DNA from: a virus
Direction: 5' to 3' (one strand)
DNA length: 57,574 bases
IMG/VR virus record: IMGVR_UViG_3300017788_000029
Location: 1 to 57,574 of that record
Shown: in pieces, positions 37,516-46,369 of the stretch
Numbering within the stretch: position 1 is the first letter of the stretch
Layout: every line of letters starts with the position of its first letter
The notes under the pieces: model-generated
What the model was told of the DNA's origin: nothing
What the model saw: the letters and a program-made list of their open reading frames with translations, nothing else
Databases searched by the model: none
Translations under genes and position numbers: made by a program

Positions 37516-39060
37516 TCATCGGTCGAGAGTGGGCATGTGGGCCATGATCGAGGCGATGAGGTCCCGCGCCCCTTCGCGCGCGAACCACGAAGCCATCAGC
37601 CGGTCGCCCGTGTGCCCTTGCGGCGTGAAGTGGAGCATCTCCGAGAACCACGCTTCGATCTCGGGATCCGACTTCCCGTGGATGTCCGAGGGGACGACCC
37701 ACAGCCCGGAGCGGAACTCGACCGCGAGCGCCTCGACGCCGAACACCTCGTCTGTCTTGTTGCGGCCCGTCGTGAACGGGATCACGGGGATCCCTCTCGT
37801 GGCGGCCCACTGGAGGAGGAACGTCTGCGCGCCATTGTCCTCCACGAGCATCGTCGACTCGAAGCGGGTGAAGGTCGACTGGAGCCGCGTGAGGATCTCG
37901 GGGCCCGTCCATCGGCCCGACTCCAGCGCCACGACGAGGCGACGCGCGCGGTCGTCGATCGCGATCGTGAAGAGGACCGAGAGCCCGTCGCCGTGGTCCG
38001 CCCCCTGCGCCACGCGCCTCTTGCGCTTGCTCGTCCCGAGGTCGACGCCCGTGAAGCACGGGAGCTTCCGGCCCGAGGGTTGGAGTATCGGCCGGTGCGA
38101 GAGGAGCGCGCGACCTCTCCCGAGCACCTTCGCCGCATCGAGCCACTCCTGCCGGAACCGGGCGCTCGCGTCGTCCCGGATGCGGCAGAAGTACTTCCGC
38201 ATGAAGGTCAGCGGGAGCGTGTTCCGCCATCGCTCCAGGAGGCGCTCCAGCGACCACGCCTCGGGCCAGACAGGACGCCATCGCTCGGGCGAGTCGTCTG
38301 GGTTGTGGACGGCGCAGTAGACCTTGATCGCCCAATCGGGCCGCTTCTGGATCGAGGCGAGGAGGTCGTTCGTGCTCCAGGGCGTCCCGATGACGATGAT
38401 CCGCCCGCGCTTGCTCAGGCGCGTGAGCACGGTCGTCTCGAACCACTCGATGAGCTTTGCGCACTGCTCGGGCGTGCGCGTGTTGTCGAAGTCCAGAACG
38501 TCGTCGAGGAGGATGAGATCGAGGCGGGAGCCAACGAGCGGGCCGCCGACGCCGAGCGCCTGGATCGTCGGATCGCGGACGATGAGCTTGCGGTCGACCG
38601 TGATGGCCGACTGGCCCCAGGACGCCTCGGGATGGTCGCTCGCTCGGAGATGCGGGAAGACCTCGTGCACGAGCGCGTTTCGCTCGATGTGCCCGCGGAT
38701 CGCCGCGAGCGGCTTCTCCGCCTGCGTCGCGGTGTTCGAGATGATCGCCGCCCGGATGTTCGGGTTCGTCCCGATGGCGTGGAGCATGTAGCCCACGGCG
38801 ATCTGCGAAGTCTTGCCGTGCTCGACCGGGGCGATGATGCCCACGAGCCGGTTCTCCCGGATGGTCGCGTGCCACTCCTCGTGGATCGGAGCCGCCTTGA
38901 TCGGCAGGCCCGTCTCCTCGTCGGGGATCGCGAACTCGACAAAGGCGCAGGAGTCGGCGACCGCCGCTCGGACGTTCGCCTCGTGAGCAGCCGCTACCCG
39001 CTCCCGAACCTCGGGGAGCGGGAGCCCGGCAAGCTCCGACGGCTGGAGGCGGAGGAGCAC
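37516..39060 (-). CDS. terL: Terminase large subunit
   Basis: A 514-residue DNA-packaging motor and nuclease. Walker A is APVEHGKTS (77-85), Walker B LILLDD (182-187) with a following Asp, and the coupling motif GTPWS at 225-229. The RNase-H-type nuclease has TGVDLGTSK (D340), LVEDNG (E407/D408) and GDRLMA (D486). It starts at GTG 8 nt after the small terminase stop. Packaging mode (headful or cos) cannot be told from the sequence. Confidence 0.95.
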   Translation of the reverse strand: MLLRLQPSELAGLPLPEVRERVAAAHEANVRAAVADSCAFVEFAIPDEETGLPIKAAPIHEEWHATIRENRLVGIIAPVEHGKTSQIAVGYMLHAIGTNPNIRAAIISNTATQAEKPLAAIRGHIERNALVHEVFPHLRASDHPEASWGQSAITVDRKLIVRDPTIQALGVGGPLVGSRLDLILLDDVLDFDNTRTPEQCAKLIEWFETTVLTRLSKRGRIIVIGTPWSTNDLLASIQKRPDWAIKVYCAVHNPDDSPERWRPVWPEAWSLERLLERWRNTLPLTFMRKYFCRIRDDASARFRQEWLDAAKVLGRGRALLSHRPILQPSGRKLPCFTGVDLGTSKRKRRVAQGADHGDGLSVLFTIAIDDRARRLVVALESGRWTGPEILTRLQSTFTRFESTMLVEDNGAQTFLLQWAATRGIPVIPFTTGRNKTDEVFGVEALAVEFRSGLWVVPSDIHGKSDPEIEAWFSEMLHFTPQGHTGDRLMASWFAREGARDLIASIMAHMPTLDR

Positions 39061-39068
39061 GGGTGCCC

Positions 39069-39608
39069 TCAGTGGGTCGCGGGAGCCTCGGTCTCCTTCG
39101 CCTCATCCGGCCATCGGCCGGTGCGCGCGAAATGCACGAGATCCTCCCGAGAGCGAGCGGAGAACCCGACGTTGAGGCTCCCACCGAGCGAGCCCGTAAC
39201 CTTCACCTCGTCCTGGTAGAGACCGTCGAGCCGGCAGAGGATCTCGGCCGCCCGAGTCGCCGCACGGAAGTCTGGGCGCTCCATCCGGAGGGGCTGGCCG
39301 TCGGGCCCGAGCATCACGTTGCCCTTCGAGTCGCGGACCACCTCGGTTCGGCTCATCGCGCGCGTGTAGAGGTCGTTCACGGAGGCCCGCATGTGCGACC
39401 GCTCCGCGCGCCGGTCGTCGCTCACGGCCTCCTTCTCCCAGCGAGCGCGGACCTCCCGCACGTAGTCGTGGACCTGCCTCGACGTCACGCCCCAGACCTT
39501 CGCGAAGTGGATCTCGATCGCCTGCGACGAGAGCCGCCGCACAAGCGCGGTCTCGACCTCGGCGAGCCTGCGTGCCTTCTCCGCGCGATCCGCGCCCTTC
39601 CTGGCCAT
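39069..39608 (-). CDS. Terminase small subunit
   Basis: A 179-residue helical protein with an N-terminal helix-turn-helix region (AIEIHFAKVWGVTSRQVHDYV, about 28-51) and a central helical oligomerisation part. It lies directly before the large terminase. It probably binds the packaging site. Its leader holds a hairpin and the ribosome site GAGGAGAAGAGAA. Confidence 0.8.
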   Translation of the reverse strand: MARKGADRAEKARRLAEVETALVRRLSSQAIEIHFAKVWGVTSRQVHDYVREVRARWEKEAVSDDRRAERSHMRASVNDLYTRAMSRTEVVRDSKGNVMLGPDGQPLRMERPDFRAATRAAEILCRLDGLYQDEVKVTGSLGGSLNVGFSARSREDLVHFARTGRWPDEAKETEAPATH

Positions 39609-39664
39609 CGTTCTCTTCTCCTCGCCCGACCGTCTCCGTGGTCGTCTGCCGTGCGACTACGGTA
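39609..39664 (-). promoter_or_regulatory. Leader of the packaging operon: TACCGT box, hairpin and ribosome site
   Basis: TGC-TACCGT at 39659-39664 is a late-type box, followed by an inverted repeat (CGACC, 8 nt, GGTCG) and GAGGAGAAGAG before ATG 39608. It combines a class-2 box with a class-1-like leader. CCGTCTCCGTGGT at 39630-39642 recurs at 24692-24704 upstream of the scaffold gene. Confidence 0.5.
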
Positions 39665-39911
39665 GCACGCCGGAGCCGACCGCCGCTGCGTAGGCGCGCA
39701 CCCGCGCCGGGCTCACCCCGGTGAGCCGCGCGATCTCGGGCTGCGTCATGCCTCGGCGGAGGCGGAACCCGACCTCGCGCTTCTCCGCGGTCGTCATCGG
39801 GAGCGTCCGAACAAGCTCCTCCACGGCGTACCGCATCGGGCAGACCGGGAGCCGCACCCTCGACGCGCACCGAGAGCAGCGGCCTCCGGCCATGATGCAC
39901 GCCCGCTTCAC
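39657..39911 (-). CDS. Small helix-turn-helix protein with N-terminal Cys cluster
   Basis: An 84-residue protein. Cys5, 12, 15 and 24 could bind zinc, and residues 53-78 (RGMTQPEIARLTGVSPARVRAYAAAV) are a clear helix-turn-helix. It may regulate late transcription, since it lies between the early fusion gene and the packaging genes. ATGA overlap with the upstream gene. Confidence 0.7.
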   Translation of the reverse strand: MKRACIMAGGRCSRCASRVRLPVCPMRYAVEELVRTLPMTTAEKREVGFRLRRGMTQPEIARLTGVSPARVRAYAAAVGSGVLP

Positions 39912-42340
39912 GCCTCGGAGCCCTCGACCGGGCGCTCCTCCTCGTAGGTCGCGAGGCCCACCGACGCCGATGGGTCCTCCAACCTCGGGATGACGTTCGC
40001 GACCGAGCCGCGGACGAACACGAGGACGTTCTGGTGGGCCTTCCCGAACTTCCGGCCCTTCTCGAACTGCCGCGCGACGCGCACGGGGACCGAGCCGAGC
40101 GCCTGGAGGTAGATCGCCTCGTTGTAGAACGCCATCCCGGCCTTCTCGAAGGCGCGGATCGTGTCGGCGACGAACCCGTGGTAGGCACCGTCGCGCTCCG
40201 CGCCGCGGACCTCTCCGACGACGATGGCCGCGAACGCGTCCTCCCGGAGCATCGAGACCGTCTCCGCGATGATGCGCTCGTACGCCTCGCGGAACGCGTG
40301 GTAGGGCATCGTCGAGAGGTCCCGCGGGTCGTCAGAGTAGACCTCCAGATCGGCGTAGGGAGGGCAGGTCAGGAGGAAGTCGAACTTCCACGTCTCCTTC
40401 GCGCAGACCGTGCGGATCGCCGTCGAGTCGCCCTGGTACCAGGTCGCGTCCCCGAGCGCCGGCTGCTCGTCGTTCTCCCGGTAGTCCGAGGCCGTGGCGA
40501 ACAGCCAGAGGAGGTCGCCGGGCTGGACGTGCGGGAGGCACTTTGCTTCGTACATCGGATCGAGCCGGACGCCGCCGACGTCGGTGACGCGGGCCGGCGT
40601 CTCGTAGGGCAGCCCGCTCTCGACGAACTTCACCCGCTCCCTCCAGTCGGCGGGAGCGCGCCGGTCGAGGAGGTCATCCACCGGACGGTCCGAGACGCGC
40701 ACGCCGAGCACGGCCACGTCCTTGCGACCGATCCGGTCGAGCCCGTGGAGGACCGAAGAGAGGCCCATCCCGGAACCCACCGGGCAGACGATCCGCTTGA
40801 CCTCGGTGGGGAGGTTCTCGATCTGCCGCGCGTTCGTCGGCACGTAGCAGTCGGCATCGAGCCCGAGCCGGACCATCTCCCAGCCGCGCTCGGCCGCGTC
40901 CTTCTCCGCCATCGGGATCAGGCGCTTGAGGAACCCGCGCCCGCTCGGCCGGATGAGGTCCGCTCCGTGGAGGACCGCATCGCGCTCCGCCGGGGAGAGG
41001 TCGTTCGCCTTCGCGGTGTAGACCCGGCACGGGATCTTGAGCGCCTGCGCCAGGCGAGCGACGCGGGAGACCATGGGGGAGTGCCGGGAGCCGGCCGCGA
41101 CGAAGCCGCGAGCGCCGGTCTCCTTCGCGAGCGCGAGGCCCGCGCGCGCCTTCGCGCCGCTCACCCCGTTGACCTCGAACAGGTCATCTCGCTTGAGCCA
41201 GATCCGGCCGCCGTCCGGGTGCTCGACCTGCTCGACTGGCGTGATCGCCTCGGGATCGGTGACGAGCGCCGCGTGGCCCGGGCGAGGAGCGCGAGGGGCC
41301 CGCGCCGCCTTCGGCAGGATGCTCTCGGCCTGCTCCCGGTTCGCCTCGACCTGCTCGCCGCGGAGGTCGACACCGACGTAGGAGCGCCCGAGCCACGCCG
41401 AGACGATGCCCCGAACGGAGCCGCCCGCGAACGGGTCGATCACCCGCCCGCCGGCCGGGCAGAACCACCGCACGAGAAGCTCGGTCAGCACCGGGTCGAA
41501 GACGCTCGTCCCGGTCGACGAGAGGCCCGAGGCGTCGGCGACACGGAGGTAGGAGGCTTCGAACTCCTCGTTCGTCGTCGCCCTCCCCAGCATGGCGTCG
41601 ACCGCGCGCTTCTGGTCGTAGTAGTCGGGGACCTGCCCCGAGAGCGACGCGAACAGGGCGCCCTTCGACTTCTTCGCCTCGGCGTAGGCCTTGGGGTCGC
41701 GAGCGCCGGAGGAGAGCCCGAGCGCGTTCCGCGGACGACCGATCTCCGACCGGATGCCGATCGCCATCCACGCGCGCCGCCGAGCCACCCAATACCCCTG
41801 CCGGGCGTCGAGGATGGAGAAGGGCGGGGCACCGAACCGCTCGGCGAGCGTCCGCCTGGTCTCATCGCCGTCGTCCCCTCCAGTGTTCGCGGACGCGAGC
41901 ATCTTCGCGACGTCGGCTGGCTCCCAGCCGGTGAGCCGGATCTCCTCCGGCGAGAACCCGGAGAAGAGGTCGGCGAGACGGAACGGGTTCCACGTCGCGA
42001 TCTCGCCCAGGCGGTTGTCGGCGGGGACGTAGAGCTTGGCCAGCCGCTCGTCGTGGTCGGTCTCGACCACGGGGACCTCCTCCAGCCCGAGGTTGAGCGC
42101 CGCGAGGTAGCGCGTGTCGCCGGCCTCCAACTCGCCGCGAGGGTCCACGATCATCGGGGTCGTCCAGCCGAACTCGTTCAGGGACCGAACGATGTCGGGG
42201 ACCGCGTGGGCGTTGTCCCTCGGGTTCCCCTCGCGCCGCCGGAGGTCGGCGAGCTTCCGAAACGGCACGCCCTGCGCCCGGAGCCGAGCGAGCGACGAGA
42301 GGAGGCGGGAGGAGGGCTGAGGGCGGGAAGCGGTCGGCAT
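39908..42340 (-). CDS. ParB-like / DNA methyltransferase split by a PLP-dependent enzyme domain
   Basis: An 810-residue protein with three parts. Residues about 28-150 resemble ParB/Srx domains (LEAGDTRYLAALNLG, VPVVETDH). Residues about 280-345 contain methyltransferase motif I (DPFAGGS, 302-308) and YVGVDL; GDS (637-639) and motif IV CPPY (659-662) lie far downstream, with a typical C-terminus (HQNVLVFVRG). Between them residues about 358-615 match the ACC deaminase/D-cysteine desulfhydrase fold: IWLKRDDL, SGAKAR with K397 as the likely PLP lysine, and PVGSGMGL as phosphate loop. ParB-methylase fusions are known in phages; this inserted enzyme domain is unusual. Function is unproven. Confidence 0.8.
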   Translation of the reverse strand: MPTASRPQPSSRLLSSLARLRAQGVPFRKLADLRRREGNPRDNAHAVPDIVRSLNEFGWTTPMIVDPRGELEAGDTRYLAALNLGLEEVPVVETDHDERLAKLYVPADNRLGEIATWNPFRLADLFSGFSPEEIRLTGWEPADVAKMLASANTGGDDGDETRRTLAERFGAPPFSILDARQGYWVARRRAWMAIGIRSEIGRPRNALGLSSGARDPKAYAEAKKSKGALFASLSGQVPDYYDQKRAVDAMLGRATTNEEFEASYLRVADASGLSSTGTSVFDPVLTELLVRWFCPAGGRVIDPFAGGSVRGIVSAWLGRSYVGVDLRGEQVEANREQAESILPKAARAPRAPRPGHAALVTDPEAITPVEQVEHPDGGRIWLKRDDLFEVNGVSGAKARAGLALAKETGARGFVAAGSRHSPMVSRVARLAQALKIPCRVYTAKANDLSPAERDAVLHGADLIRPSGRGFLKRLIPMAEKDAAERGWEMVRLGLDADCYVPTNARQIENLPTEVKRIVCPVGSGMGLSSVLHGLDRIGRKDVAVLGVRVSDRPVDDLLDRRAPADWRERVKFVESGLPYETPARVTDVGGVRLDPMYEAKCLPHVQPGDLLWLFATASDYRENDEQPALGDATWYQGDSTAIRTVCAKETWKFDFLLTCPPYADLEVYSDDPRDLSTMPYHAFREAYERIIAETVSMLREDAFAAIVVGEVRGAERDGAYHGFVADTIRAFEKAGMAFYNEAIYLQALGSVPVRVARQFEKGRKFGKAHQNVLVFVRGSVANVIPRLEDPSASVGLATYEEERPVEGSEA

Positions 42341-43860: not shown

Positions 43861-44436
43861 CTACCGTCGCTCGGGAGCGACTCGGGCCGCCGGCTCGGTC
43901 CACGGCACGCCGATGGTCTGGAAGAATTCCCGCTCGGTCGCGCCGGGGAAGACGCGCCCGGTCTTCTCCGAGACCACACGCCCCTCCTCGACGCGCACGC
44001 CTACGCGCCGGCAGACCGTCACGAGGTGCTGGGAGTACTCCGCCGGGCCCGTGCGGATCGCGAGGATGACGCCCCACTGCGCCGGAGGTCGGACTGCGAA
44101 CACGTCGAGTCTCGCTCCCTCGGGGAGCACGACGAGGGACCAGACGCGCCGCGAGGTCCGAACGTCAGGGACGATCGGATGCGTCTCGGTCCTCCACCGG
44201 AGCTTCCCGGCCGCGACCATATCGCCGAGGAGGAGCGCGAGCCGACACTGCCCCGTCGGCTCGCCGAAGAGGTCCGTGGTGACCTCGGGCTCGGCGACGA
44301 TCTCGATGTCCTTCACCTCCGCCGCGCCTCGCCGAAGCGAGCCGGCGATGACGATCTGCTTGCACGCCGGAGCGAGCGCATCGCGCACGCGTTCGGCGAT
44401 CGGTGCGGCCTTCGCCGCCAGCATTCGGTCGAGCAT
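43861..44436 (-). CDS. PolX-type (DNA polymerase beta-like) nucleotidyltransferase
   Basis: A 191-residue protein. GSLRRG (32-37) with VKDIEI (D43, E45) and LDVF (D111) form the nucleotidyltransferase triad of family X polymerases, and AEYSQHL-type residues near 132 fit the C-terminal palm. It lacks the N-terminal HhH and lyase domains of full PolX, so it is a minimal or truncated form that may do short gap filling or untemplated transfer. ATG with GGAGGAG upstream, in an ATGA overlap. Confidence 0.85.
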   Translation of the reverse strand: MLDRMLAAKAAPIAERVRDALAPACKQIVIAGSLRRGAAEVKDIEIVAEPEVTTDLFGEPTGQCRLALLLGDMVAAGKLRWRTETHPIVPDVRTSRRVWSLVVLPEGARLDVFAVRPPAQWGVILAIRTGPAEYSQHLVTVCRRVGVRVEEGRVVSEKTGRVFPGATEREFFQTIGVPWTEPAARVAPERR

Positions 44437-44561
44437 CACTCCTCCTTCACCGCGGCCAAGGCCGCCTCTACGACCGCGCACAGATTCCCGATCCGTGCGC
44501 GGCCTCCATGCGTTCGGTTCCATGCCTCCCGGATGCGCGCGAGCGCCTCCCGGTGCGTCAG
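44436..44561 (-). CDS. Small protein with a probable CTG start
   Basis: A 41-residue frame, LTHREALARIREAW then IGNLCAVVEAALAAV, ends in an ATGA overlap with the PolX-like gene. No ATG, GTG or TTG lies between its plausible start and the upstream stop; CTG in a CTGA overlap (44559-44561) fits the pattern of the neighbouring overlaps. It is helical and of unknown function; the ribosome site is weak. Confidence 0.45.
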   Translation of the reverse strand: MTHREALARIREAWNRTHGGRARIGNLCAVVEAALAAVKEE

Positions 44562-45727: not shown

Positions 45728-46369
45728 TCACCACCAGCCGGTCTCGACGAGATCGACCGGGAACTTCTCGCGCGAGAAGCCGGGCTCTCGCCCGAACCGC
45801 CTCGCGAGGTGCAAGACCTCGAACTCGTGCCGCGGGGTGCCGTCCTTCCCCTCCTCGGCGTCGATGAACGAGGGTCGAGCGCGCAGGATGCGCTCCCTCA
45901 GCAGCGAGCACTCCGAGAACAGCCGCGCGCGGTCGGTCGAGCCGTGCCGGAACGCCGAGCGGACGATCGCGATGACCTGCTTCGAGACCACCGACGCGCC
46001 CTCGACGTGATCGGAGTCTTGGCCGTCGTCGTAGGGCGGGTTCATCACGGCAAGGTCAAAGGGCGGTTCCGTTGGTCCGCCGTCCTCGTAGAGATCCTCG
46101 ACCCACGAGAGGAAGTCTCGGTGGATGACGCGGAGGCCCGGCCACGCGCGCCGGAGGTGCTTCACGCGCCCCGAGTGAAGCTCGACCGCGGTGATCGAGG
46201 AGACCGGAACGCCGAGGTCCACGAGCGCCTCGACCAGCGCGCCCTCTCCGGCGCTCGGTTCGAGGATGCGGAGCTTCGACAGGTCTACGTCGGGGAATGC
46301 CTCCAACGCGAAGGTGGCGGTCCGCTTCGCGAGGACCGGATCCGTGAGCCAGGGAGCGAGCTTACTCAC
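45728..46369 (-). CDS. DNA adenine N6-methyltransferase
   Basis: A 213-residue class I methyltransferase: motif I LEPSAGEG (36-43), an acidic residue AVELH (61-65) and motif IV NPPYDD (110-115) of adenine-N6 enzymes. No separate specificity domain is seen, so the target is unknown. It may protect the phage DNA from restriction. GTG start, 8-nt overlap with its upstream neighbour. Confidence 0.85.
   Translation of the reverse strand: MSKLAPWLTDPVLAKRTATFALEAFPDVDLSKLRILEPSAGEGALVEALVDLGVPVSSITAVELHSGRVKHLRRAWPGLRVIHRDFLSWVEDLYEDGGPTEPPFDLAVMNPPYDDGQDSDHVEGASVVSKQVIAIVRSAFRHGSTDRARLFSECSLLRERILRARPSFIDAEEGKDGTPRHEFEVLHLARRFGREPGFSREKFPVDLVETGWW

Follow-up and report, generated by a model that had tools for sequence, protein, structure and literature searches.

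In a 57,574-base IMG/VR virus record (IMGVR_UViG_3300017788_000029; hereafter the window), which has 70% guanine-plus-cytosine (GC) content and nearly all of its genes on the minus strand, we found a gene encoding a complete pyridoxal phosphate (PLP) enzyme of fold type II, predicted to be catalytically intact, inserted into a ParB-fused DNA transferase of the methyltransferase (MTase) fold. The pairing extends beyond this protein: the partnership of such a PLP enzyme with a ParB-MTase is well supported as a widespread two-enzyme module, present in hundreds of phages. In a sister group of these transferases, an S-adenosylmethionine (SAM) decarboxylase takes the place of the PLP enzyme. We hold with about even confidence that the substrate of the PLP enzyme is the amino-acid portion of a group placed on DNA.

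A PLP enzyme within a ParB-fused DNA transferase

The open reading frame (ORF) at positions 39908-42340 on the minus strand starts with ATG, encodes 810 amino acids and is present exactly as the initial annotation of this DNA had described it. Its GC content by codon position (0.71/0.49/0.94) gives the strongest coding pattern among the ORFs of the window and resembles that of the phage's real genes. The domain reading in that annotation, a ParB-like region and an MTase split by a fold-type-II PLP enzyme, was upheld by matches to Pfam PALP and N6_N4_Mtase and to phrog_498 and phrog_620, and the motifs DPFAGGS (residues 302-308), SGAK with K397, and CPPY (residues 659-662) lie where it had placed them. 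The parts of the protein, with the evidence for each, are as follows.

39908..42340, minus strand: ParB, MTase-fold transferase and inserted PLP enzyme in a single 810-residue protein (ORF, Pfam, PHROG, coding pattern)
41861..42259, minus strand: ParB-like N-terminal domain, residues 28-160 (phrog_620, E-value (E) 1.4e-28)
41306..41524, minus strand: transferase part 1, residues 273-345 (Pfam N6_N4_Mtase at residues 285-333; phrog_498; alignment)
codons 41408-41437, minus strand: motif I DPFAGGSVRG, residues 302-311, within transferase part 1
40475..41281, minus strand: inserted fold-type-II PLP enzyme as modeled, residues 354-622 (PALP, AlphaFold2, Foldseek)
41150..41152, minus strand: K397, the expected PLP Schiff-base lysine (K in 185/187 family members)
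40769..40777, minus strand: G522-S523-G524, predicted PLP phosphate-binding loop (G in 187, S in 187 and G in 185 of 187)
40541..40552, minus strand: YEAK, residues 597-600 (Y597 in 185/187, K600 in 187/187)
39989..40444, minus strand: transferase part 2, residues 633-784 (phrog_498, phrog_12517; alignment)
codons 40355-40366, minus strand: catalytic CPPY, residues 659-662, within transferase part 2

The transferase portion matches Pfam N6_N4_Mtase (PF01555) over residues 285-333 with 28.4 bits, above the gathering cut-off of 26.7, and carries both DPFAGG and CPPY. The DNA methyltransferase family phrog_498 covers residues 273-784 (E 1.5e-96) on model positions 354-603 only, and with about 250 model positions for this span the match must be interrupted, split around the PLP region. 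At the N terminus, Pfam ParB_N reaches 18.5 bits against a cut-off of 26.3, and the ParB-like assignment comes from phrog_620. The insert separates the helix behind motif II from strand 3 of this ParB-fused N4/N6-type transferase.

The inserted region had been proposed to adopt a PLP fold, and this fit was found at several levels. Pfam PALP (PF00291) matches residues 361-550 with E 7.7e-12 and 45.6 bits (gathering cut-off 35), with PVGSG, a phosphate loop of the PLP type, at residues 520-524. An AlphaFold2 model of residues 354-622, built with 19 relatives, has a mean predicted local distance difference test (pLDDT) of 89 and a predicted template modeling score (pTM) of 0.85. Searching this model against the PDB with Foldseek returned 415 matches at E<=0.001, headed by D-cysteine desulfhydrase (4d8u, E 1.7e-14, template modeling (TM) score 0.72) and 1-aminocyclopropane-1-carboxylate (ACC) deaminase (1j0a, TM score 0.75). 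By sequence, the family profile detects these solved enzymes weakly, at 28.8 bits for the best.

The phage enzyme shares with D-cysteine desulfhydrase and ACC deaminase (PDB 4d8u, 1j0a, 1rqx) the fold, the Schiff-base lysine and a GSG-type loop, but it is only ~18% identical to them, and the phage family is ~250 amino acids long against their ~330. Furthermore, the SNH-type loop that holds the substrate carboxylate in D-cysteine desulfhydrase is replaced in the phage family by SRxSPQ or SPxxGGAQ. A plain D-cysteine desulfhydrase or ACC deaminase identity was rejected, as TIGR01275 scores 18.6 against 289.4 bits and all of the equivalog cut-offs for these two enzymes are far off.

Across 187 distinct relatives, the active-site K, GSG, Y and K hardly vary, though the two subtypes of the family are ~20% identical. 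This pattern speaks for an enzyme that is active, on a new substrate, rather than for a relic, and it weakens the suggestion in the initial annotation that the domain might be a metabolite sensor. Sequence and model together confirm that the window ORF is a real gene with a predicted-intact PLP enzyme inside a ParB-fused DNA transferase. A set of longer PLP relatives (~330 amino acids; L346-L360), mostly 26-30% identical to the window-type subtype, lies in most cases upstream of a very diverged SPPY transferase and may represent a further branch of the pairing.

Distribution of the PLP-transferase partnership

The contig collections searched are redundant and loci were chosen by similarity; the proportions below describe these samples only. 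A PLP domain is inserted at one and the same point of the transferase in 33 proteins, a count that includes redundant copies and the near-identical contig of the window. In all 33, the insert falls between positions 65-77 and 69-92 of the transferase profile, ahead of the strand that runs into the GDS/CPPY part; insertion at the target-recognition domain was ruled out, the site lying between the post-motif-II helix and strand 3 in 33/33 cases. Pseudanabaena phage Pam4 (38% identity over 91%) and Erythrobacter phages R6L and ZS04 share the architecture, as do another 27 IMG/VR contigs, some of them near-duplicates (28 less L336, whose contig encodes an identical copy of the window protein). These occurrences rule out a unique fusion or an assembly artefact, and the singular fusion envisaged in the initial annotation gives way to a recurrent one.

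Two PLP subtypes are found as inserts, one in the window and Pam4 and the other in R6L and ZS04, the latter being 47% identical to a standalone enzyme. A single clade of inserted PLP domains is rejected by the approximately unbiased (AU) test (p 5e-65), indicating that fusion and separation happened repeatedly; the places of the long-branch rows Alsa_1, L332 and L361 in the trees are unsure. The PLP enzyme also occurs fused to the tail or head of the MTase, or encoded adjacent to it, upstream or downstream. In Microcystis phage Mae-JY30, for example, a standalone PLP enzyme directly follows a non-inserted ParB/MTase pair; this gene (L010:7585-8295, XAI96327) is annotated as a 'DNA modification methylase'.

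When IMG/VR loci were picked by the MTase alone, a PLP gene was present in 40/80. When they were picked by the PLP enzyme alone, an MTase was present in 78/80, upstream of the PLP gene on the same strand in 76 and directly adjacent in 74; in the two loci without an MTase, the contig starts at the PLP gene. Adjacent PLP and MTase genes overlap by exactly 4 nt in 89 of 130 pairs. Most hosts of the related prophage-type loci belong to the Alphaproteobacteria.

Two arrangements stand apart from these. In Staphylococcus phage Alsa_1 (L014), a diverged TSPPYF DNA methyltransferase precedes a standalone PLP gene by four genes (CDS31, CDS35), and one phage contig (L005, 9956-13369) carries two tandem copies of a non-inserted MTase, ~2.5 kb apart.

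A SAM decarboxylase partner and the proposed chemistry

In Pseudomonas phage ZRG1 (L173, 5926-7771) and Croceibacter phage P2559S (L171, 5980-7621), the gene that overlaps the ParB-MTase encodes a SAM decarboxylase. Both proteins match PF02675, and that of ZRG1 passes the TIGR03330 equivalog cut-off (86.1 versus 75.65). Among loci with an MTase of the FD[TC]FAGD type, a SAM decarboxylase gene lies just downstream in 73/80 and a PLP gene in 0/80, in a search made by the MTase with a pattern that partly selected the FD[TC]FAGD motif, not the decarboxylase. The decarboxylase processing motif ESH..xHT.PE is intact in 58/59 distinct copies, and the catalytic H and C are present as well.

The two kinds of partner are accompanied by different forms of motif I in the transferase. 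PLP-partnered transferases carry DPFAGGSVRG (G..R in 181, D..F in 0, with 34 others unmatched or diverged), whereas decarboxylase-partnered transferases carry FDxFAGD[ST]VFG (D..F in 76, G..R in 0). MTases with no partner found nearby have G..R in 46 cases and D..F in 6. In the MTase tree, the decarboxylase group forms a cluster with support 99 beside PLP-associated and partnerless G..R rows and is likely nested within the G..R MTases, the root of the tree not being known. In this fold, the methionine end of SAM lies against motif I. Loss of the Arg and gain of an Asp there fit the use of decarboxylated SAM, which lacks the carboxylate; the GGGDG motif of spermidine synthases also contains an Asp.

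A SAM decarboxylase consumes SAM, and phage T3 SAM hydrolase depletes SAM against restriction; the partner enzymes might accordingly be imagined to destroy SAM and starve SAM-dependent restriction enzymes of the host. We consider this very improbable, since a SAM-destroying enzyme fused to a SAM-dependent transferase, or encoded in a gene overlapping it, would deprive that phage transferase of its cofactor, and motif I covaries with the partner.

The combination of a ParB-MTase bearing FDxFAGD[ST]VFG with an overlapping SAM decarboxylase gene, seen in L171, L173, L176 and L177-L256, is a module in its own right. In L019 and L020, which encode the same protein, a PP-loop (SGGKDG) ATPase-like gene lies directly downstream of a PLP-less ParB-MTase and is perhaps a third kind of partner.

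Because the PLP enzyme is coupled to a transferase and is replaceable by an enzyme that removes the SAM carboxylate, the simplest common product would be a 3-aminopropyl base. We infer the chemistry, that is the transferred group, the base and the order of steps, as follows. The ParB part would bring the transferase to DNA, and the transferase would attach the side chain of SAM (3-amino-3-carboxypropyl, acp), and not only a methyl group, to a base amine. The PLP enzyme would then work on the alpha-amino acid now attached to DNA, its most likely reaction being decarboxylation to the 3-aminopropyl base. In the sister clade, SAM decarboxylase would make decarboxylated SAM, from which the transferase would move the aminopropyl group directly, giving the same end product. 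This specific route, acp transfer followed by PLP-dependent decarboxylation, is a tentative proposal. The same order of steps is known from MccD/MccE of microcin C, where acp is transferred from SAM and PLP-dependent decarboxylation then yields aminopropyl; the substrate there is a peptide-nucleotide and not DNA. The modified base may mask phage DNA from restriction, mark it for packaging, or both; the packaging idea comes from the position of the transferase gene, which stands just before the terminase in several of these phages, that of the window included.

Consistent with a role in base modification, the nearest characterized relative that we found by sequence is the PLP enzyme of M6-type cassettes. 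Against the phage PLP family profile, the enzyme of Bordetella phage CN2 reaches 49.7 bits and the highest-scoring solved enzyme 28.8. An hhalign comparison with the CN2 type gives 97.6% over 218 columns, including an FP.xPxYDxKAW...FWN block. The CN2-type gene occurs in CN2 and ~65 other phage records, mostly of Pseudomonas phages, and its neighbors in CN2 are a radical-SAM-type 'photolyase', a nucleoside triphosphatase (NTPase) and a deoxyuridine monophosphate (dUMP) hydroxymethylase. Among these records is Sphaerotilus phage SN1, in which this gene is the PLP enzyme of an M6-type thymidine-modification cassette (PMC9476957). The M6/YuA-type enzymes (CN2 'threonine dehydratase', SN1_023; phrog_7093) are thus homologous compact fold-type-II enzymes that serve hypermodification of phage DNA bases and have the C-terminal block in common with our standalone subtype. 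They differ in their partners, which are a thymine hydroxymethylase, a kinase, aGPT-Pplase and radical SAM enzymes, with no ParB-MTase link. In the 2022 work of Lee et al., the M6 PLP enzyme reportedly decarboxylates a base-linked amino acid.

Instead of acting on DNA, the PLP enzyme might act on free SAM or another amino acid to make a non-methyl donor for the transferase. The SAM decarboxylase in the same gene slot does act on free SAM, and CmoA/CmoX offer a phage precedent, which counts for our proposal as well, for a transferase that uses a non-methyl SAM derivative on DNA (PMC12783734). As in our proposal, the CmoA/CmoX/CmoY carboxymethylcytosine system combines an MTase-fold DNA transferase, a modified SAM and a subsequent tailoring enzyme, often with ParB genes nearby; it differs in having a C5-cytosine enzyme with SPPC, the donor synthase CmoA and an AMP-forming ligase, and it lacks a PLP enzyme or SAM decarboxylase. 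We regard such cofactor tailoring as unlikely here: the motif I shared by PLP-partnered and partnerless transferases indicates no change of the cofactor pocket with the PLP gene, and fold-type-II chemistry on SAM (gamma-elimination, racemization) yields no obvious donor.

A plainer account, to which we also assign a low probability, is that the transferase simply methylates N6 of adenine or N4 of cytosine and that the PLP protein regulates it in response to a metabolite or is an auxiliary metabolic enzyme of unrelated function in the operon. The transferase part matches DNA methyltransferase families only, and many relatives work without a PLP enzyme. Known ParB-DNA methyltransferases of phrog_498 (HCTV-2 gp11, Enterococcus phiFL3A gp36) have the same ParB plus transferase chain with no insert, and differ in that no PLP or SAM decarboxylase partner was found. 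Plain methylation sits poorly, however, with catalytic residues nearly invariant across subtypes so diverged and with repeated fusion at one site, and it gives no reason for replacement by a SAM decarboxylase.

The PLP enzyme might also add a serine- or cysteine-derived aminoacrylate to the base amine, with the transferase flipping the base or supplying a methyl group. The fold is that of beta-replacing enzymes, and plant beta-substituted-alanine synthases that use uracil, placing an alanyl group onto it, exist. Replacement of the SNH carboxylate loop and the SAM decarboxylase swap, which points to the SAM side chain and not serine, make this improbable.

Several observations weigh against action of the PLP enzyme on a DNA-linked amino acid. 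Fold-type-II enzymes mostly catalyze eliminations, replacements and racemizations. The general MTase fold would place the insertion point, just ahead of strand 3, at a distance from the SAM/base pocket, and a model of the whole window protein is poor (pTM 0.45) and cannot tell whether one substrate could reach both active sites. Motif I of the PLP-partnered transferases is the same G..R form as in the 46 partnerless MTases. At the sensitivity used, no PLP gene was found in complete phages that have the transferase, such as HCTV-2 and prophiGD43A-5, suggesting that the PLP enzyme is an add-on and that the transferase can act alone.

A new DNA-modification chemistry served by the PLP enzyme, as the initial annotation had suggested, nevertheless stands as the best-supported reading, now with repeated insertion at a single point, standalone PLP genes next to the MTase, the SAM decarboxylase swap and homology to the M6-type enzyme as evidence beyond that annotation. 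It is possible, though somewhat doubtful, that the module represents a new class of phage DNA modification that places SAM's amino-acid side chain, and not its methyl group, on a base, with two interchangeable routes to a 3-aminopropyl product; the window protein would combine both steps of the PLP route in one chain. Thymidine-derived pathways and carboxymethylation would then be joined by a third kind of chemistry for hypermodifying phage DNA, and the genomes of these phages would bear 3-aminopropyl bases with a positive charge, each in effect a polyamine stub linked covalently to the DNA. It would also explain many phage genes labeled 'DNA modification methylase', 'pyridoxal-phosphate dependent enzyme' or 'hypothetical protein', or left unannotated, and would provide two enzyme pairs that put a primary amine on DNA, useful for labeling. 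A literature search for PLP-ParB-MTase proteins, for acp in phage DNA and for phage SAM decarboxylases associated with ParB or DNA modification found nothing relevant, many subscription papers lying outside its reach. The module is directly testable, since cultured phages (R6L, ZS04, Pam4, Mae-JY30, ZRG1 and P2559S) and cultured bacteria with prophage-type loci exist.

Neighboring genes in the window

Downstream of the fusion gene lie three genes on the same strand.

39657..39911, minus strand: small helix-turn-helix (HTH) protein, with a 4-nt overlap with the fusion gene (weak HTH matches)
39069..39608, minus strand: probable small terminase subunit (position before the large terminase only; no family match)
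37516..39060, minus strand: large terminase subunit (phrog_38, E 2.5e-62)

Among the window genes scanned, which did not include every small ORF, there are none of the M6-type companions (dUMP hydroxymethylase, 5-hydroxymethyldeoxyuridine (5hmdU) kinase, aGPT-Pplase, radical SAM enzymes). Nor is there a CmoA or a ligase among the genes scanned, and the transferase is of the N4/N6 type with CPPY, not a C5-MTase with SPPC. Dnd-like phosphorothioation, which would combine ParB, a 3'-phosphoadenosine-5'-phosphosulfate (PAPS) reductase and a PLP enzyme, was considered and dropped: a PAPS-reductase-like gene lies near the R6L/ZS04 fusion, with none among the scanned genes of the window.

Two other genes of the window are of note. 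A small family-X polymerase-like protein is encoded at 43861-44523 on the minus strand; it matches PF14791, the thumb of DNA polymerase beta, with E 7.4e-9, and the palm weakly. At 45728-46369, also on the minus strand, lies a second methyltransferase-like gene, with an NPPY motif and matches to PHROG DNA methyltransferases.

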